A stretch of DNA of 64,000 nucleotides, taken from positions 248,001 to 312,000 of the forward strand of contig MU270065.1 of the NCBI GenBank assembly GCA_021432635.1, given 5' to 3'. Within the stretch, counting starts at the first letter, position 1. The number at the start of each line of letters is the position of its first letter. Shown here one piece after another: positions 34,020-46,609 of this stretch. The notes beneath the pieces were generated by a model, which ran no database searches, had not been told where the DNA came from, and was given only the letters and a program-made list of their open reading frames with translations. Source of the stretch: Thozetella sp. PMI_491. Taxonomy: Eukaryota > Ascomycota > Sordariomycetes > Chaetosphaeriales > Chaetosphaeriaceae. The translations under genes and the position numbers were made by a program.

Positions 34020-35041
34020 AGCTCCGCCGCGAAGTAAACAGGCATTTATCTATAGCGTGGTCGTGGCCCTCACATATTTTGTCCTTTGGCGGCAAATTGG
34101 GCCCGGTGGGTAGCCGACAAAGTGGCAGCAGTGTGATGCAGCTTGGGAACCTGGTGAGGCGAGCAGCGGGACTGACGTGCTGAACTCGATCCACTCTGTT
34201 GGCCGGCTCCTTACGTAAGGCAAGCCAGCCGCGCGGCTCAGTAGCGTATCAGTTAATTGGCAAGTCCTTATGGAGTTTTAGCTACTCTGTACCTATAACT
34301 CGGGCTGGCTGGTTGACAGAGCCCAGCCATTGAGGTATCTACAGCTGCCTAAAACGCTGGAGAGAACTCCCGCAGGTGCCTCAAATTTGGCTTTCGTAAG
34401 GAATTTCGATGGAACTGTCTAATAGGACAACTGGAAGAGTTGGAAATTATGGGCAAAGGCAAGGTTTGCGCTGGTGTCCTCTCCGCCTGGCATGGCCAAG
34501 TCGACATTGCTACAACATTTGGGTTGGGCTGTCACGCACAGGGAACAAGGCAAGGAACCACATGTTTGGTTAGGAAGAAGTAGCCAAACGACACGAAGGA
34601 GAGGCTTTCGTATCTTCCGCCTCTCAAGGGTTACACTCCGCACATCCTACGAAGCAAAGAAAAGGATTTGCTGCGTAGTTCGCGGAAGCAGAACATAAAA
34701 AGTGGCATTGCTGACGTCTCTGCTACTGGGAGGGCAGGCCGTGCATGATATGCGCGAAAGACCTACCTTGGAAGCCATACAGACAAGTTGCCTGCGGTCG
34801 GTGACTGGTCTACGGCCATCTCTGGTTACCACTGCCACCAATGTCGGCCCGACGCAAGCGTTATGTGTCCACCTCGGCGGGGGCAGGATGCTGGGCTTGC
34901 AGAATCCATTATTCTGTGAGCTCTCCAAGCGAGAGGTCTGATGGAGATGTGGGCCACGATGGGTCAGTCTTCTTGAACCCTGTAGCCCTTCTTCCGCGTG
35001 GCTTTAGTGCCATGACTGGGCGGTTGGACTTCGACGAGTTC
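34020..35041. other. Intergenic region upstream of the tRNA gene
   Basis: About 1 kb with no supportable protein gene. It includes the promoter of the minus-strand DUF1746 gene. Short ORFs on both strands lack domains. Confidence 0.5.
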
Positions 35042-35202
35042 GGGATCTTGGCGCAGTTGGCTGTAAGTCACCCTGGAGCTCGGTTTCTGCAACCTAAGCT
35101 AACTCCTCTTGCAGAGCGCGTAGGTCTCATACACTGTTGTGTGTGATCTGATCAAAGATCAGAGCTATCCTGAGGTCGTGAGTTCGAGCCTCACAGGTCC
35201 CA
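35042..35202 (+). tRNA. Elongator tRNA-Met (anticodon CAT) with a D-loop insert and an anticodon-loop intron
   Basis: The acceptor arms GGGATCT (35042-35048) and AGGTCCC (35195-35201) pair with one G-U, and the discriminator base is A35202. The D stem GCGC (35051-35054) pairs with GCGC (35117-35120). The anticodon is CAT at 35128-35130. The T arm GTGAG-TTCGAGC-CTCAC is perfect. The U-U at the base of the anticodon loop is also found in yeast elongator tRNA-Met. Two inserts must be removed to give a 74-nt tRNA. One is 35132-35166 (35 nt) at the normal 37/38 site, containing a 7-bp hairpin. The other is 35063-35114 (52 nt) in the D-loop, with GTAAGT at its start, CTAAC at 35099-35103 and TTGCAG at its end. 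Pol III boxes are present: A box TGGCGCAGTTGG (35049-35060) and B box GTTCGAGCC (35182-35190). Removing exactly GT...AG leaves the common D-loop AGTTGGCTA. Without removal the tRNA cannot fold normally. Confidence 0.85.
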
Positions 35203-35210
35203 TGCTTAGA

Positions 35211-35215
35211 TTTTT
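35211..35215 (+). terminator. Pol III terminator of the tRNA-Met gene
   Basis: A run of five T lies 8 nt after the discriminator base, the normal spacing for an RNA polymerase III stop. No T-run of four or more occurs inside the two inserts, so Pol III could read through both. Confidence 0.75.
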
Positions 35216-35522
35216 GCCACCGCCGGCAGACTCGATAGCTTGATGGTCTGGTATTTGGGGGTTTTTTTTTTTATAAATTGAAAATGAAATAAAAATAGGA
35301 ATGACCAGAGTATATTGACAGGGAAAGAGGCACAGTTCGGACAGGTTGGGAGAGTGGAAAACAAAGAGGTTTGGTGGTGCTCTAGTGCCCGAGGTAGTGT
35401 GTGGGCGGCTCTGCTAAATCCCTGGCTCAGGCTACGTTTGGGTGTGAGGGGGAGGGGCTCTAATTGTATTGGTGGGGTTGAACTTTTGGTAGATCTGGCG
35501 CAGGACGATTTTGGGATTTTGG

Positions 35523-35637: not shown

Positions 35638-37242
35638 ATGGTGGCGGACACAGCCAGCTCCTCTGGGGCCGTGACGCTCCGAATTCTCCAAGCGCTGGAC
35701 AAGTCAGAGCCGGTGCTCTCGAGCGAAGCCTTCCCTGAGCTGCCCTTCACTGAGGTCAAGGCGGCCCTTGACAGCCTCGCTTCGCGCGAGATGGTCAAAT
35801 ATGAGACGATCGATCAAGAAGAAGCCGTCCTCGAGCCGGAAGCCGAACAGATTGCCGCCAATGGAAGCCACGAGGCCCGCGTGTTCGAGGCCCTCCGCCA
35901 GGCCGTCGAGGGCCTGTCGGTACAGGAGTTGGAGAAGGCAGTGGGAGACAAGAACGTCACCACGATCGGCCGGGGCAAGGCCTTCAAGGAGAAATGGATA
36001 CGCAAGACGGCGGACGGCAAGTTCCAGGCGGCGGTAGGTTGTCCCTCTCCTGCAGCCACCAGCGGCTCGCGTGCTGACGAGGACGTACAGGCCAGCTCGA
36101 TAAAAGATGTCACCCGAGAGCAGATTCAGATCGTGCAGAAGACGCGGTCACATCCCGACCCAAAAGTGCTTGCCGACCTCAAGAAGCGCAAGCTCGTCAA
36201 GATGCAGAAGGTCATCAGCTACAAGGCGTTCAAAGGACCCAAGTTTGCGCTTGAGATCACCAAGGAGGAGACGGACCTGACGGCAGACATGATTGCCTCA
36301 GGAGCGTGGAAGAGTGCTACCTTCAAGCCGTACAACTTCAAGGCCCTTGGTGCCGACCAGCACGCCGGCGCTCTGCACCCTCTGAACAAGGTGCGGCACG
36401 AGTTCCGGCAGATCTTCTTCGAGATGGGCTTCGAGGAGATGGCGACGGATCGCTTCGTCGAGTCTGGATTCTGGAACTTTGACGCCCTCTTCGTGCCTCA
36501 GCAGCATCCTGCCCGAGACCTCCAGGACACCTTCTACATCTCGGACCCCAAGGTGGCCGACAAGCCAAGACCCGAGAACGCCGATGACAAGCAAGACTAC
36601 GACGAGTATTGGAACAATACCCGGCAAGTGCATGAGACGGGAAAGTATGACTCAATAGGCTACCGATACCCCTGGTCGCCGGAAGAGTCCCTGCGGCTCG
36701 TTCTCCGTACCCACACCACGGCCATCTCGTCGGCCATGCTCTACAAGCTCGCGTCCCAGAAGGGGCCGGACGGCCGGCCCCCCCCGGCGCGGTACTTCTC
36801 CATCGACCGCGTCTTCCGGAATGAGTCGGTCGACGCCACCCATCTTGCCGAGTTCCACCAGGTAGAGGGCGTCATCGCCGACTACGGGCTTACGTTGGGT
36901 GGCCTCATGGAGTTCATGGAGATCTTCTTCGGAAAGATGGGCATCCAAGACCTGCAGTTCAAGCCGGCGTACAACCCCTACACCGAGCCGAGCATGGAGA
37001 TCTTTAGCTACCACAAGGGGCTTAACAAGCTCGTCGAGATCGGCAACAGCGGCATGTTCCGGCCTGAGATGCTGGAGACCATGGGCTTGCCCAAGGATAT
37101 GAGGGTGTACGGCTGGGGCTTAAGTCTGGAGCGGCCGACCATGATCAAGTACGGCATCTCCAACATCCGGGAGCTGCTCGGCCACAAGGTAGATTTGAAC
37201 TTCATCCAGAAGAACCCCGCCGTGCGGCTGGACAAGGATTAA
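35638..37242 (+). CDS. FRS2: Phenylalanine-tRNA ligase alpha subunit, cytosolic
   Basis: Catalytic alpha subunit of the (alpha-beta)2 synthetase that charges tRNA-Phe. The whole stretch is one open frame, but 36034-36090 has a GT donor (GTAGGT), a GCTGAC branch and a TACAG acceptor, and it encodes a non-conserved GCPSPAATSGSRA peptide. I read it as a 57-nt intron. Exons are then 35638-36033 and 36091-37242, giving 515 aa against 503 in yeast. The N-terminal winged-helix region (1-130) includes KNVTTIGRGKAFKEKW. Class II motif 1 is HPLNKVRHEFRQIFFEMGF (from about residue 228), motif 2 is RYFSIDRVFRNES (from 366) with the downstream HLAEFHQVEG, and motif 3 is GWGLSLERPTMIKYGI (from 473). It acts in the cytosol with the beta subunit, which is not in this window. 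Confidence 0.97.
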   Translation: MVADTASSSGAVTLRILQALDKSEPVLSSEAFPELPFTEVKAALDSLASREMVKYETIDQEEAVLEPEAEQIAANGSHEARVFEALRQAVEGLSVQELEKAVGDKNVTTIGRGKAFKEKWIRKTADGKFQAAVGCPSPAATSGSRADEDVQASSIKDVTREQIQIVQKTRSHPDPKVLADLKKRKLVKMQKVISYKAFKGPKFALEITKEETDLTADMIASGAWKSATFKPYNFKALGADQHAGALHPLNKVRHEFRQIFFEMGFEEMATDRFVESGFWNFDALFVPQQHPARDLQDTFYISDPKVADKPRPENADDKQDYDEYWNNTRQVHETGKYDSIGYRYPWSPEESLRLVLRTHTTAISSAMLYKLASQKGPDGRPPPARYFSIDRVFRNESVDATHLAEFHQVEGVIADYGLTLGGLMEFMEIFFGKMGIQDLQFKPAYNPYTEPSMEIFSYHKGLNKLVEIGNSGMFRPEMLETMGLPKDMRVYGWGLSLERPTMIKYGISNIRELLGHKVDLNFIQKNPAVRLDKD

Positions 37243-38796: not shown

Positions 38797-41700
38797 ATGC
38801 CCTCGACTATGTCTCTGGCGGGCCGAGCTCCTGCCCTCCTCCGACATGGCCGCCGGGTACCCGTGCCCCAGCCATTGGCAGCGAGACCCTTCACGTCGGC
38901 CGGTCTGAAGTCGTTCGCCCGGTCGCAGGAACCTGCTTCCAGGGGCCGCGTGATACAAAAGCGCTTCCTTTCTGCAACCGCCGCCGCGAGCTCTGCGGCC
39001 GCGCAGCCCGCGCCGAACCCGAAGGCGTACCTCGACAGCGGCGTGATCAAGCCCCGGGATCACGTAGACGTCAAGAAGGTGCTTGTCGTCGGATCCGGAG
39101 GCCTCGCCATCGGCCAAGCCGGCGAGTTCGACTATTCAGGTACGGGCCCTCCCCCAATCGCAGTGGTGTGGGCGGTGAAGCCATGAGTCACACGACAACC
39201 AGAGCACCTTAGACCAGGGGCTAATAAGGACCCAATTGAACAGGATCGCAAGCCTTGAAGGCTCTCAAGGAAGCTGGTGTCGCCTCGGTCCTCATTAACC
39301 CCAACATCGCCACTATCCAGACGAACCACGTCCTCGCCGACGAGGTCTACTACCTGGTGAGCCACATCGGCCGCCCGACAGCCTAGACCGAGATTGCTAA
39401 CGATATCCCCTCGCCAACAGCCTGTGACACACCAGTATATCGAATATGTCATCCAGAAGGAGAGACCTGATGGCATCTTCCTCAGCTTCGGTGGTCAGAC
39501 CGCCCTCAACCTCGGTGTCGAGCTCGAGAAGAAGGGCACTCTCAAAAAGTACGGCGTGAGGGTTCTAGGCACGAGCGTTCGGACGCTCGAGCTCAGCGAA
39601 GACCGTGACCTCTTCGCGAAGGCCCTGGAGGAGATTAACATTCCTATCGCCAAGTCGATCGCCGTTAACACCGTCGACGAAGCCCTCGATGCTGCTCAGA
39701 AGATCGGCTATCCCATCATCGTCCGTGCCGCTTATGCCCTCGGGGGTCTTGGCTCTGGCTTTGCGAACAACGAGGAGGAGCTCCGCAACATGGCCGCTCG
39801 TTCCCTCACGCTCTCGCCGCAGATTCTGGTCGAGAAGTCGCTCAAGGGCTGGAAGGAGCTCGAGTACGAGGTCGTCCGAGACGCCCAGGACAACTGCATT
39901 ACCGTGTGCAACATGGAGAACTTCGACCCTCTTGGAATCCACACCGGAGACTCCATTGTCGTTGCGCCGAGTCAGACCCTCAGCGATGAGGAGTACCACA
40001 TGCTCCGGTCCGCGGCCATCAAGATTGTCCGCCACCTTGGCGTGGTCGGCGAGTGCAACGTCCAGTATGCTCTTCAGCCCGACGGCTTGGACTATCGCGT
40101 GATCGAGGTGAATGCCCGTCTTAGTCGGTCGTCCGCCCTCGCCTCCAAGGCTACCGGCTACCCCCTGGCCTATACCGCCGCCAAGATCGGCCTCGGCCAC
40201 AGCCTTCCCGAGCTCCCGAACGCTGTGACGAAGACCACGACGGCAAACTTCGAGCCTTCTCTCGACTACATCGTCACTAAGATGCCCAGGTGGGATCTCT
40301 CCAAGTTCCAGCATGTCAAGCGCGATATCGGCAGTGCCATGAAGTCTGTCGGTGAGGTCATGGCCATCGGAAGGACCTTCGAGGAATCCTTCCAGAAGGC
40401 GATTCGCCAGGTCGACCCCAAATTCGTCGGCTTCCAGGGCGACAAGTTCGACGACCTCGACTTCGAGCTCCAGAACCCGACCGATCGCAGGTGGCTGGCC
40501 GTCGGCCAAGCCATGCTGCACGAGAATTACTCGGTCGACAAGGTCCACGAGCTGACGAAGATTGACAAGTGGTTCCTGCACAAGCTACAGAACATTGTGG
40601 ACTGCAACCGGGAGCTGCAGGTTCTCGGCAGCCTTGAGAGCCTCAGGAAAGACCACATCCTCAAGGCTAAGAAGCTCGGGTTCTCTGACAAGCAGATCGC
40701 GATGGCCGTGGGGAGCACAGAGGACAAGGTCCGTGCCCAGAGGTTGGAGTTTGGCGTCCGTCCTTGGGTGAAGAAGATCGACACCCTCGCCGCCGAGTTC
40801 CCGGCCGACACCAACTACCTGTACACCACCTACAACGCCTCTACTCACGATGTTACATTTGAGGACAAGCCGACCGTTATCCTCGGAAGTGGTGTCTACC
40901 GTATCGGCAGCTCCGTCGAGTTCGACTGGTGTGCCGTGAGCGCCACACAGGCTCTGCGCCAGATGGGAGAGAAGACGGTGGTGATCAATGTGAGTATTGC
41001 ACTTTCCTCAAACTCGCCTTCCTTCTCGACATCCCAAGAACCATGGCAGCAACGGACAGACAACGATGGAAGGCACGTCCTGCGTCGCGTGGTATAAATC
41101 CATTTGTCTACTTGATTCGAATTTCCTCTTCTGCCATCTCGCATCTCCTTTCGTCAGAGCTCTCCTTTCGTCTTCGTCGCGTGATCGAGATGAATGCCCT
41201 TCTTAGTCGGTCGTCCGCCCTACAACATAGGCAGGGACAGGAAGCATCAAGCTCGGCGAGTCAGAGAGGCTCTCGAGAAGAAGACATTCCATTGCGAGCT
41301 CTGCGATATCTCGCTCGGCACCAAGCAAAGCCTGCAAGACCATTTGAAGACTCCCAAGCATCTTCGGAAGTCCGATGAGGGCAAGAATCCCTTTGTCTGC
41401 AAGCCTTTTAACCTCGGGTACCACAACAAGAGCAACCTCACTCGTCATGAGAAATCTCTGCACCACCAGCGCAACCTCGAGGCCTACAAGAAGCGTACTC
41501 GTCGCACTCTGGATGGCTCCCTGGAGGATGAGATCAGTCATAACAGCTGGTCACTTTCTTGATGGCCCCCTAGAGGACGATACCAGTTAGTAACCTGGTC
41601 ACCTTCTTGATGGCTCCCTGGAGGATGATGAGAATAGTTACCTTATCACCCTTTTGATGGCTCCCCAGAGGACGATGAGAGTAGTTACCTGGTCATCCTT

Positions 41701-43557
41701 ATCTTGCCTCCCTGGAGGATGATGAGACCAGTCACCTGATCACACTCTTGATGGCTCCTTGGAGGATGAAATTAGTTGAGCTAGCGATGTTTCCTAAAAA
41801 AACAAGCCCACCCATCGCCTCCTTGATGTCTCCTACAGAGCAGTTAAGCTAACATCCCCCTGGTACAACCCGGAGACTTACAGCACTGATTTCGACACTG
41901 CTGATAAGCTCTACTTTGATGAGCTCAGCTACGAGCGTGTGATGGATATCTGTAAGTTACTGGGTCGAGATGTGTGCTCATGACATGGCTGCTAACACTA
42001 AATGTCAGACGAGCTTGAGAACGCGAGTGGTGTCATTGTTAGCGTCGGTGGCCAGTTACCGCAGAACATTGCGCTGAAGCTCGAGGAGAGTGGCGGAGCC
42101 CACGTCCTCGGAACTGACCCTAAGGACATCGACAAGGCCGAGGACCGGCAAAAGTTTTCCGAGATCCTCGACAGCATTGGCGTTGACCAGCCCGCGTGGA
42201 AGGAGCTTACATCTGTCAAGGATGCCGAGGCCTTCGCCGAGGAGGTCGGCTATCCCGTTCTTGTGCGCCCGAGCTACGTCCTTTCTGGTGCCGCCATGAC
42301 CGTCATCAACAGCAAATACGAGCTCAAGGACAAGCTGGAGGCTGCCAGCAATGTCTCGCCCGACCACCCTGTTGTTATCAGCAAGTTCATCGAAGGTGCT
42401 CAAGAAATCGACTGTGATGGTGTTGCTTCTGAGGGCAAGCTCCTCGTCCACGCCGTCAGCGAGCACATCGAGCAGGCTGGTGTCCACTCTGGCGATGCTA
42501 CGCTGGTTCTGCCTCCCGTAAATCTTGACGAGAAGACTATGGAACGTGTTAAGGAGATTGCCGAGAAGGTTGCTAAGGCCTGGAATATCTCGGGCCCCTT
42601 CAACATGCAGATCATCAAAGCCGATGATCCCGAGGGTGGTCTCCCGCAGCTGAAGGTCATCGAGTGCAATCTCCGCGCGTCCCGCTCCTTCCCCTTCGTT
42701 AGCAAGGTCCTCGGTACAAACTTCATCGACATTGCGGCCAAGGCTCTCGTCGGAAAGGCGGTCCCCGAGCCTGTTGACTTGATGAAGGTCGAGCGTGACT
42801 ACCTCGCCACAAAGGTGCCCCAGTAAGTTATCCTCCGTCCTCAACTTTCCATGTATATACTGGTCATTGATTGGTGCTTACCCTCTTATAGGTTCAGCTG
42901 GACCCGTCTCGCTGGCGCCGATCCCTTCCTTGGCGTGGAGATGTCCTCGACCGGCGAGATGGCGTGCTTCGGCCAGGCCACGGACGCCCGCGACAGGCTC
43001 ATCGATGCCTACTGGGCTAGCGCTCAGTCGGCTATGAACTTCCGCGTGCCCGAGCCGGGTGAGGGTCTCCTCTTTGGCGGCGAGCTGAGCAAGTCGTGGT
43101 TGACGACCGTGGTGGACTACCTCTCTCCTCTTGGGTACAAGCTGTATGCGACCGACAACGAGGTGAAGCAATTCCTCGAGTCCACCGCCAAGGAGAAGAT
43201 CAATGTCGAGGTGATTGAGTTCCCGAAGGAGGATAAGCGTGCGCTGCGTGAGGTGTTCAAGAAGTACGATATCAGGGGTGTCTTCAACCTGGCTAAGGCC
43301 CGTGGTAAGACCATCATGGATGTCGACTACGTCATGCGCCGGAACGCCGTCGATTTCGGAGTTCCTCTGTTCATGGAGCCTCAGGTGAGTTGTTACCTAA
43401 TAAACTCTTCCGCATCCTATCCCCGTGATTCCGTTCTAACTGCCCACAGACCGCCATGCTCATGGCTGAGTGCATGAGCAAGAAGCTCCCTCGGCCCGAG
43501 GGCGTCCCCACTGAGGTTCGCCGGTGGTCCGAGTTCATCGGCGGCAAGCCTCTTTAA
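38797..43557 (+). CDS. CPA2 (arg-3): Carbamoyl-phosphate synthase, arginine-specific, large chain (mitochondrial)
   Basis: Makes carbamoyl phosphate from glutamine-derived ammonia, bicarbonate and ATP for arginine synthesis, with a separate small glutaminase chain. Exons: 38797-39139, 39244-39356, 39421-40989, 41864-41951, 42009-42822, 42892-43384 and 43450-43557, about 1175 aa. Residues 1 to about 60 are a basic, Ser/Ala/Arg-rich mitochondrial presequence. The N-terminal half shows [31 protein letters not shown] and the ATP-grasp. The second half begins [18 protein letters not shown] and contains [16 protein letters not shown]. The C-terminus is the allosteric-type domain ([11 protein letters not shown]...[14 protein letters not shown]). 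The join between exons 3 and 4 is inferred from the invariant N|YNPET sequence: the donor at 40990 (GTGAGT) is normal, but the bases before 41864 are GG, not AG. The nearest in-frame AG (41847-41848) would insert LTSPW. The 874-nt gap holds inserted sequence. All other introns are standard. Confidence 0.93.
39184..39190. promoter_or_regulatory. TGAGTCA element in the first CPS intron
   Basis: A second perfect TGASTCA lies inside the first intron, about 390 bp after the start codon. An intronic CPC-1/Gcn4 site is possible, but chance occurrence is not excluded. Confidence 0.3.
41177..41221 (+). repeat. 45-bp duplicate of CPS exon 3 sequence inside the CPS intron
   Basis: This segment matches CPS coding sequence 40095-40139 in direct orientation at 43 of 45 positions; the differences are a G-to-A and a G-to-T. 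The source encodes the [14 protein letters not shown] block of the N-terminal ATP-grasp domain. The copy directly abuts the zinc-finger fragment at 41222, so it marks a rearrangement junction. Confidence 0.9.
41222..41562 (+). pseudogene. C2H2 zinc-finger gene fragment inserted in the CPS intron
   Basis: An open frame on the same strand as CPS reads into two C2H2 units. The first, [25 protein letters not shown], has intact Cys2His2 spacing. The second, [25 protein letters not shown], has Phe where the second cysteine should be. It then enters a basic stretch and the first unit of the minisatellite, ending SHNSWSLS. The only ATG that would start it (41194) lies inside the copied CPS segment, so the fragment lacks its own beginning. 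I infer a captured piece of a fungal zinc-finger gene, probably non-functional and removed with the intron. The source gene is not in this window. Confidence 0.65.
41512..41780. repeat. Minisatellite of ~48-bp units within the CPS intron
   Basis: Six imperfect copies begin at about 41512, 41561, 41609, 41656, 41703 and 41750, each starting like GATGGCTCCCTGGAGGATGA and continuing with a CAGTTACCTGGTCAC-type end. The period is 47-49 bp. The first copy is in frame with the zinc-finger fragment and encodes [17 protein letters not shown] 16-codon coding repeat is therefore the likely origin, now drifting with small indels. Confidence 0.85.
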
Positions 43558-44402: not shown

Positions 44403-46609
44403 CTAGCTACCCCCGACTTCCTCATAATCACGACCTCCTTCCTTCGGACGCTTGGACGGCGGCGGGTGATCTTCGTTCAGCCTGACAGCAGCAATACGCT
44501 TAGCAAGATGTGCTGGGAATTCGGTAGCAGCAGAAGGAGTCAAGGACCGAGTGGACGAAGCAGCACTGGCCGGAGTGGTAGTGGGCAATGGGAGTTGCGC
44601 CTCCACCTTGTCCAAGTCTTCGATGTCGTCCGGACGGGGACGCTTGGGAAGTCTCTCACCAGAAGATTGCAAGATGGCGCGAAGGGTCTGCCACCCGGTA
44701 GTGGAGCGGAGCTGGAAGGCTTCCGCGAGATCGTGCTGGGCCGCCACTCGACAGAGCAGAGCTTCTTCCTCCTGCTGGTGTGTCAGTCGGGCCAGAGCCA
44801 CTGCGGTCGGTTCTACATACCTTGGATAGGACGCCCATCTGGTGGATGAAGCAGAGAAGGGAGAAGTTGGAGATGTTGAACTCGGCCTCCTTCTGGTTCA
44901 CACGCAGAGCCTTGGCCACGCTCGAGAGCTCCTGGGCCTCGCCTAGGAACTCGCGGTTCTCGGTCGGGAACGACTGGTCCGTAAACATGGGCTTTGGGCT
45001 CTCGGGGAAGCCGTGGGTTAGCGTGACAAAGAGGTATTCGACCGGGAATGCCGGCTTCGCGTTCTCCTGAACGTTTGCGCCGTATTCGTTGATCTTGCGG
45101 TAGAAGACCTCGGGGATGTAGCGCGTCCTGCTAGTCGAGCCGTCTTCCTCCTCCTCTTCCTGAACTAGCATGACTGTAGGATCAGCCGAGGGCTCTACGA
45201 TGTTCGCGCGTACCATCTCGACAGCGTCGTTGGACATCTGGTACGCCGAGATGGAGATCTCGCCTTTCTCGTTCCCGGATATGATGCAGGTGACGAAATT
45301 AGAGCCAAACTTGCCCGTGTCGCTCCATTTCGTTGGTTTTGGGTGTTGAGCTTGAAGCCGAGCTGAGAAGCAGACCTCAAGGGACGACAGGAAATATGAG
45401 TCGGCGTGACGCTTGCAAATAACTGAGCCGTCGCCCTGGCCAGCATCGATGAGGTCGGTCCAAATAACACCAACCTGCTCGAGCCCGCAGTATTTCGCCA
45501 CCTCGTTGACGTCTTTCTCGTTGTCCCAGGCGTTCAGGGACACTCCATCTATTTCGTCGACCTGAGGAACCTCAAAGATAGCTTCCACCACAGCTTTGAT
45601 TCCGAGCGGCACGACATCATACTCAGCCAGCCGGCCGTAAAGGAAACCTAGCCGCTGGCCGCCGCTTCTGCGCCATGCGTTTAAGAAGTTCTCAATGATG
45701 TCCGGGGATGCGAACTCGACGTGGTCGACCATCCGGAAGGACTGCGGCTGCAGGGTGATAGCGCTGGGCTGGCACTTGGTGCAGATGCCCTCCGGCCATT
45801 GGGGGTGACCCGAAGGACAGTCACGCTTGACGCGGTAATAAGGTTCGACCAGAGGCGGGATGAAAGAGCTCCCGAGCTCCGGCTTGTTTGTGGCCGAGTT
45901 GATCTTCTTGAGATACGAGTGCACCGAGAGATACTTGATCTTCTTCTCCTCGAGGTACTTGGCGTCGAAGGGGTCCAAAGGCATGCAGTAGTCACACATG
46001 CCCTTGGGACCGTGGCGGCACATGGTGCCCTTGGATCTTGGGATCTTTCCCTCTTTCCTGTCTAGCATATCGTCCAGCGGTGACTGCCTCACGGTCTCCC
46101 ACGGGTTCTTGATTCTCTCGGTCGGCGAAAGTGGCTGGTCGATCGGAAGGTCTTCGGTTGGAAGGATCGGTTTGCCGTTGAGGCGGTTGGTAGAGCCCAG
46201 ACTCTTGACTCCTTCGCCGTCATTGGTATGGCCGTTGGAGACGGCGTCCTGGTGCTTGTAGCTGATGAATATTAAATCGCCGTGGCTGCTCGCCCGTCAG
46301 TCTCGCCCTCTGCTACCAAACACACCATGCGCGCCCGACATACCCCAGACCAATCTGACCGATCTTGAATTTAGCGATCTCGCCGAGCCGCTTCGAGTCT
46401 CCACCAGATGGCTGGTTCGAGAGCGTGATCGTCTTCGGGTCGACGGTGGGTGGTAGCTTGGGGAGCAGCTAGGGCGCGGGAGTTAGCCTGCCACTCCGGG
46501 CGGAAGTTGTGGACATGGGACATACCTGGTGGCCGAGGTCGCTAAATGTATTGTCCTTTTCCACCGTCAGGCGGAACATGCCATCCGGGGTCCTCAATCG
46601 GAGAAGCAT
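44403..46609 (-). CDS. NPL4: Nuclear protein localization protein 4 (Npl4), Cdc48 cofactor
   Basis: Npl4 with Ufd1 recruits the Cdc48/p97 ATPase to polyubiquitinated clients in ER-associated and nuclear degradation. There are four exons: 46609-46526, 46468-46344, 46285-44821 and 44774-44403, 681 aa. The ubiquitin-like UBX-type domain (1-75) starts [19 protein letters not shown]. The zf-NPL4 module has Cys159/167/170 ([12 protein letters not shown]) and Cys226, His230, Cys238, Cys241 ([16 protein letters not shown]). From about 255 follows the MPN-like domain ([18 protein letters not shown]...[10 protein letters not shown]), as expected without the JAMM metal motif. The C-terminal helical part ends with a poorly conserved Thr/Pro/Ala tail. 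The last acceptor is a NAGNAG (caccagcag). All junctions keep family sequence. It is divergent from SEC66. Confidence 0.96.

Follow-up and report, generated by a model that had tools for sequence, protein, structure and literature searches.

Spliceosomal-type inserts in an elongator tRNA-Met gene and in ten further tRNA genes of the fungus Thozetella sp. PMI_491

The locus studied here lies in a 64,000-nucleotide stretch of Thozetella sp. PMI_491 DNA (contig MU270065.1, positions 248,001 to 312,000 of the forward strand; hereafter the window), in which an elongator tRNA-Met gene at 35042–35202 carries both a 35-nt intron at the standard 37/38 site and a 52-nt insert in the D-loop. What the second insert is, and how the transcript of such a gene might mature, is the question addressed here. 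Reviews locate the introns of eukaryotic nuclear tRNA genes at 37/38, a red alga and nucleomorphs being the exceptions (PMC3978253; PMC4090602), and according to a 2017 paper U3 and U6 are the only small structured RNAs for which frequent interruption by an intron is known (PMC5832005). An earlier note had proposed that a spliceosomal intron entered this gene, with a hairpin processed by an endonuclease or a dead gene as alternatives; its coordinates, letters and motifs for 35042–35202 were verified against the sequence.

Anatomy of the elongator tRNA-Met gene

The features of the gene, with the evidence that places them, are as follows.

35042–35062, + strand: 5' exon, with the 5' strand of the acceptor stem, the A box (TGGCGCAGTTGG) and the D-loop to U20a (Rfam alignment; identical D-arm in the paralog on contig C85)
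35063–35114, + strand: 52-nt D-loop insert, with GTAAGT, CTAAC 11 nt before its end, and CAG (splice signals, deletion scan)
35115–35131, + strand: second exon, with A21, the 3' strand of the D-stem, the 5' strand of the anticodon stem, the CAT anticodon and A37 (Rfam alignment)
35132–35166, + strand: 35-nt intron at the standard 37/38 site, with a predicted two-hairpin plan as in the C85 gene (folding)
35167–35202, + strand: third exon, with the 3' strand of the anticodon stem, the variable loop, the T-arm with the B box, the 3' strand of the acceptor stem and A73 (Rfam alignment)
35211–35215, + strand: TTTTT run, a probable Pol III terminator (letters)

Searching positions 34990–35260 with the Rfam tRNA model under permissive filters gave a full-length match to 35042–35202 at 34.4 bits (gathering threshold 29), aligned with an insert each in the D-loop and the anticodon loop. 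The gene was detected neither by a default Rfam scan of the window nor by ARAGORN with or without introns allowed. Its CAT anticodon, the cloverleaf formed without the inserts and the TTC T-loop are those of an elongator tRNA-Met. The acceptor stem (7/7) and T-stem (5/5) were complete, 20/20 pairs were standard, the A box and B box were intact and a T5 run followed downstream, so the broken stems and lost boxes or terminator of a pseudogene were not found. No cloverleaf was predicted for the unmodified mature 74-mer of either Met gene, in the window or on C85. On the same strand an ORF, which we take to be PheRS-alpha-like, begins at 35638, 436 nt downstream of the tRNA gene.

The D-loop insert lies at position 20a/21, away from the canonical 37/38 site. 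In a scan of deletions upstream of the anticodon arm, 11 of 2,628 gave a standard D-arm and only one of these 11, 35063–35114, was a GT...AG interval; this stricter scan took the place of one based on ARAGORN, which with 151 calls for 2,145 deletions was not selective enough. Predicted pairing of the D-stem was 0.01 with the insert and 0.89 without it. In the reading of the earlier note, all four arms form only once the two inserts are taken out. The lenient motif GTRNGT...CTRAY...YAG was found in 6 of 3,000,000 random intervals of 40–80 nt drawn from both strands of the window.

DNA and pattern searches of the 72.3-Mb, 157-contig assembly revealed one other elongator tRNA-Met gene, on contig C85, with an Rfam score of 48.5 bits. 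Its D-arm was uninterrupted and identical to the joined exons of the window gene, and the boundaries of the window insert are exact because of this identity. The earlier note had held that an intact copy elsewhere, together with a lack of reads from the window gene, would speak against its proposal; the intact copy, a single one, was found, and because it exists the window gene could be expendable. The 37/38 intron of the C85 gene was 33 nt long and had a two-hairpin plan like that of the 35-nt intron in the window, with an unrelated sequence; shuffled sequences folded as well as the intron in 1 of 1000 cases for the window and in 29 of 1000 for C85. The two mature tRNAs differed at 8 of 74 positions, yet all 20 pairs were standard in both; three of the pairs had both bases replaced and two had a single base replaced. 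Therefore, during some, if not all, of the time that has passed since the two genes separated, the exons of both have been under selection as tRNAs. The C85 copy sits in an AT-richer stretch (47% G+C), its neighbours were read as dehydrogenase-like and ankyrin-like sequences, and a short telomere-like TTAGGG/CCCTAA stretch lies about 230 bases upstream (locus L079, about 5300). Two Met(CAT) genes on contig C116 were read as resembling initiators.

The introns of protein-coding genes in the window provided the standard against which the D-loop insert was compared. For two window genes, those for carbamoyl-phosphate synthase and NPL4, the closest named relatives were in Sordariomycetes (class read from the genera), with identities of up to 88%. 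Introns were placed in three window genes by spliced alignment to homologs, and the nine that were kept were each supported by at least two homologs; their GT-AG ends are so by construction, because the aligner required GT-AG. They were 49–69 nt long, with CTNAY 9–19 nt before the end in 8/9 and a GTAAGT start in 2/9. The D-loop insert (52 nt, GTAAGT, CTAAC-N11, CAG) fell within their range, in line with the likeness to protein-gene introns claimed earlier. Excluded were the intron at 39140–39243 (104 nt, placed with all three homologs, atypical signals), that at 40981/40990–41848 (859–868 nt), that at 44513–44566 (placed with a single homolog out of three) and, in ORC3, five calls not common to both homologs. 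The 859–868 nt of the carbamoyl-phosphate synthase gene ending at 41848 were skipped as one intron and may contain several introns or a small exon.

Ten further tRNA genes with inserts

Eleven tRNA genes with inserts, the window gene included, were found among at least 68 distinct tRNA genes: Met, two Asn, Lys, Leu(UAA), Leu(AAG), two Glu, Gly, Arg and Ala. Isoacceptor names were read from the joined exons, and several of these genes were misread by ARAGORN. The inserts were located in the D-loop, anticodon arm, variable loop or T-loop, none of the 11 at 37/38, and they occupied eight or nine different tRNA positions. All 11 began with GT and ended with AG, and all carried CTNAY 10–12 nt before the end; with lengths of 50–58 nt, against 49–69 nt for the host's introns, they have the sequence features of U2-type introns. 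The start was GTAAGT in five and another GT sequence in six, and the 3' end was CAG in nine, TAG in one and AAG in one (Gly). The 5' exons measured 17–66 nt. The distance from branch motif to 3' end was tighter in the tRNA inserts than in the protein-gene introns, where it ranged over 9–19 nt.

These genes came from several searches. With the Met D-arm as pattern, two tandem tRNA-Asn(GTT) genes were found on contig C6, each with its anticodon stem split by a GTAAGT...AG segment; the pattern also matched the C85 Met gene and a place on C47 where ARAGORN predicted no tRNA. The loci of the first Rfam census included a Lys(CTT) gene whose variable loop is split and a Leu(UAA) gene interrupted within the anticodon; the Leu(UAA) insert has a T5 run inside and CTCAC as branch motif, and Rfam aligned this gene with a single anticodon-loop insert where our own reading gives two. 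A search with tRNA exons revealed an Ala(AGC) gene split in the T-loop, with an insert that interrupts the B box, an acceptor stem of 6/7 and a junction found joined in an intact neighbouring gene. For Leu(AAG), the first 39 joined bases occurred twice in the locus on C31, both times in intact genes, and the last 45 were absent there. In the Arg gene (C103, L159) the insert splits the A box, but the G with which the insert begins re-forms the A-box GG at the DNA level. Under permissive filters at E 0.1, Rfam recognised 3 of 8 insert-bearing loci.

Selection blind to splice signals gave the same picture. A B-box pattern matched 52 places, against 60 in the reversed control, and is therefore not enriched by itself; 26 of the 52 passed tests of T-stem, acceptor stem and D-arm. 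Six of these 26 had a long 5' part (104–135 nt, against 48–81 nt in the rest), and all six could be read with a GT...AG insert: Leu(UAA), the tandem Glu(CTC) pair, Gly(UCC), Leu(AAG) and Arg(CCU). An A box followed by GTAAGT, with up to three mismatches, occurred at four places and at four in the reversed control, and because of this equality only the exact match in the window is meaningful. None of the 33 distinct introns called by ARAGORN in the tRNA loci submitted was GT...AG, and two of them were pieces of the inserts in Lys and Leu(UAA) that had been modelled wrongly. Judged by the same 33 calls, short anticodon-loop introns are common in the tRNA genes of this genome. A T-arm pattern matched 17 places in viral contigs, all of which were other tRNAs by eye. 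The four U6 genes and two U3 genes found in the genome had no insert.

The total of at least 68 tRNA genes comprises 45 Rfam matches (one mitochondrial-like), two elongator Met, two Asn, 16 from the B-box search and three from the exon search. The censuses scored 63 of 1,545, then 40 of 57 and 11 of 11 candidates, and the totals are lower bounds because part of the candidates was scored. Left out were a place on C40 cut by the contig end and a tRNA-like B-box place on C54 (C54:89181, L150), which has a full acceptor stem and T-stem with an odd anticodon arm and is perhaps a tRNA-derived element. A twelfth case is probably a second Lys(CTT)-like gene at C67:10776–10901, 710 bp from the first, with two exon matches about 52 bases apart at the same site as in the first Lys gene. 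Partial Lys- or Arg-like matches were seen at C36:491657, C36:494620, C16:950218, C58:165361 and C103:118330; those at C36:494620 and C58:165361 break off within the T-arm or close to it and may represent additional split genes.

Exons were conserved and inserts had diverged. In the tandem Asn pair 74/74 bases outside the inserts were identical, and the inserts agreed in 35 of 59 aligned columns; in the tandem Glu pair the figures were 80/82 (37/38 intron counted) and 35/57. Shuffled cores scored as well as the tandem insert pairs in 33 of 500 cases for Asn and 25 of 500 for Glu, and because of these frequencies a faint common origin of the paired inserts is possible. The T-stem was 5/5 in all 11 genes and the acceptor stem 7/7 in all except Ala. 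A T run of at least five began within 20 nt downstream in 10 of the 11; in the Lys gene no T run was found within 50 nt downstream. An origin of the inserts as repeats of the introner type was considered and rejected: at E 10 the window intron with short flanks matched nowhere else in the genome (very common words skipped), and the 11 tRNA inserts had no match to one another at E 0.01.

Origin and removal of the inserts

We consider it likely, with a probability of roughly 0.8, that the elongator tRNA-Met gene of the window is functional and carries a U2-type spliceosomal intron in the D-loop, as one among at least 11 tRNA genes here with such introns at non-canonical sites, and that its transcript is made (probably by Pol III), then processed by the spliceosome and afterwards by the tRNA endonuclease. 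From the anatomy of the gene, the boundary match to its paralog, the splice signals, their recurrence, and the conservation of exons relative to inserts, we infer the polymerase, spliceosomal excision, the order of steps and the function of the product. With its internal A and B boxes the gene would be transcribed by Pol III; GUAAGU, CUAAC and CAG would be recognised by the spliceosome, which would cut out the 52 nt and join U20a to A21. The D-arm would fold once the insert is gone, and the tRNA endonuclease, reading the mature body, would next take out the 37/38 intron. Several observations weigh against this reading: the intact Met paralog, the T5 run and CTCAC motif of the Leu(UAA) insert and the single insert given to that gene by Rfam, the AAG acceptor of Gly, the split B box and 6/7 acceptor stem of Ala, the missing T run downstream of Lys, the 3 of 8 loci recognised by Rfam, the failure of both unmodified Met 74-mers to be predicted as cloverleafs, and the insert-free U6 and U3 genes.

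The alternatives differ in what they do with these same observations. Splicing is normally coupled to Pol II, and the inserts might be real spliceosomal introns that are spliced only from Pol II read-through, for example, in the window, from a transcript of the downstream PheRS-alpha-like ORF with a long 5' leader that includes the tRNA gene, the Pol III transcript being left unspliced and degraded. This is improbable: the Met gene has kept its A box and B box, 10 of the 11 genes have kept a terminator, the exons of the tandem pairs are conserved as tRNAs, and U6, a Pol III RNA, has introns in some fungi. About equally improbable is that the split genes are pseudogenes, either tRNA copies broken by intron-like insertions or copies whose real introns are never usefully removed, with intact copies doing the work. 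In its favour, insertions in the D- and T-arms of eukaryotic tRNA genes are described in a review as mostly affecting one of many synonymous genes and as supposed pseudogenes (PMC4090602); intact relatives exist here for Met, Leu(AAG) and Ala, as do intact Glu(CTC)-type genes, and the Ala gene combines an imperfect acceptor stem with a split B box. Nearly all of the 11 have nevertheless retained stems and terminators, the pair changes in Met are compensatory, the Asn exons are identical despite diverged inserts, and a shared GT, CTNAY at 10–12 nt and AG are not expected of random insertions. The dead gene of the earlier note is weakened accordingly.

Least probable of the three is that the inserts are ectopic introns, excised out of a hairpin or bulge-helix-bulge by a nuclease such as the tRNA endonuclease. 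Junctions at 20/21 of the D-loop are reported for Cyanidioschyzon merolae and archaea (PMC3978253; PMC4090602), and the ends of the window insert, CTGTAAG and CTTGCAG, can indeed pair over 7 bp as was pointed out earlier. That helix has no bulges, however, and it is present in 4 of 154 GTRNGT...YAG candidates in the window, which takes weight from the hairpin. A bulge-helix-bulge scan of the insert reached at best 3/4 central pairs, as did both canonical-intron controls, and thus did not set the insert apart from them. The GT, CTNAY and AG signals have no role in such a mechanism, which is further weakened because these signals are common to eight or nine different tRNA positions.

The sequences are best explained by spliceosomal introns that repeatedly entered tRNA genes here and would be removed by the spliceosome. 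The entry of a spliceosomal intron into a tRNA gene, as proposed for the window, is strengthened by the ten further insert-bearing genes, although what had been taken as one event looks, with 11 genes, like a recurrent class. Somewhat less firmly, we favour a wider reading in which the tRNA introns of this genome include spliceosomal ones as an established class, present in about one sixth of the genes seen and nearly anywhere in the cloverleaf. The tRNAs for Met, Asn, Lys, Leu, Glu, Gly and Arg would then mature partly by way of the spliceosome acting on Pol III transcripts, some isoacceptors may be without an intron-free copy, and entry may be ongoing, perhaps with abundant Pol III RNAs as targets of reverse splicing; standard tRNA finders would miss or misread such genes.

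Known systems and significance

No precedent for a spliceosomal intron in a nuclear tRNA gene was found in the literature searched (open-licence papers). Canonical 37/38 introns, removed by the tRNA endonuclease, are likewise introns of nuclear tRNA genes, and the window gene has one too; they differ from the inserts in position, length class and signals. Ribosomal RNA is long and a Pol I product, in contrast to tRNA genes with 5' exons as short as those found here. An mRNA-type intron in fungal 18S rRNA is also a spliceosomal-type intron in a non-coding RNA gene, as far as the title of a cited reference indicates (PMC11782384). The mRNA-type introns of fungal U6 snRNA and U3 snoRNA are alike in being spliceosomal introns in genes for small structured non-coding RNAs, and U6 is a Pol III RNA (PMC5832005); the hosts here differ in being tRNAs, of many kinds within a single genome. 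The ectopic introns known from Cyanidioschyzon merolae, nucleomorphs and archaea share the use of sites other than 37/38, including the D-loop, and the occurrence of several per gene, but they are described as bulge-helix-bulge introns or as unexplained very short ones (PMC3978253; PMC4090602), whereas the inserts described here carry splice sites and a branch-point motif.

Spliceosomal introns are usually described as a matter of Pol II transcripts, U6 and U3 excepted. If our reading is true, a dozen spliceosomal introns in the tRNA genes of one genome would connect both splicing pathways, and the spliceosome would handle RNAs with first exons down to 17 nt. The genes would also offer clear cases of intron gain with intron-free paralogs available for comparison, and the tRNA gene sets of some fungi would be undercounted. 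Taken as they stand, the sequences suggest a part for the mRNA splicing machinery in the production of tRNAs in Thozetella sp. PMI_491.
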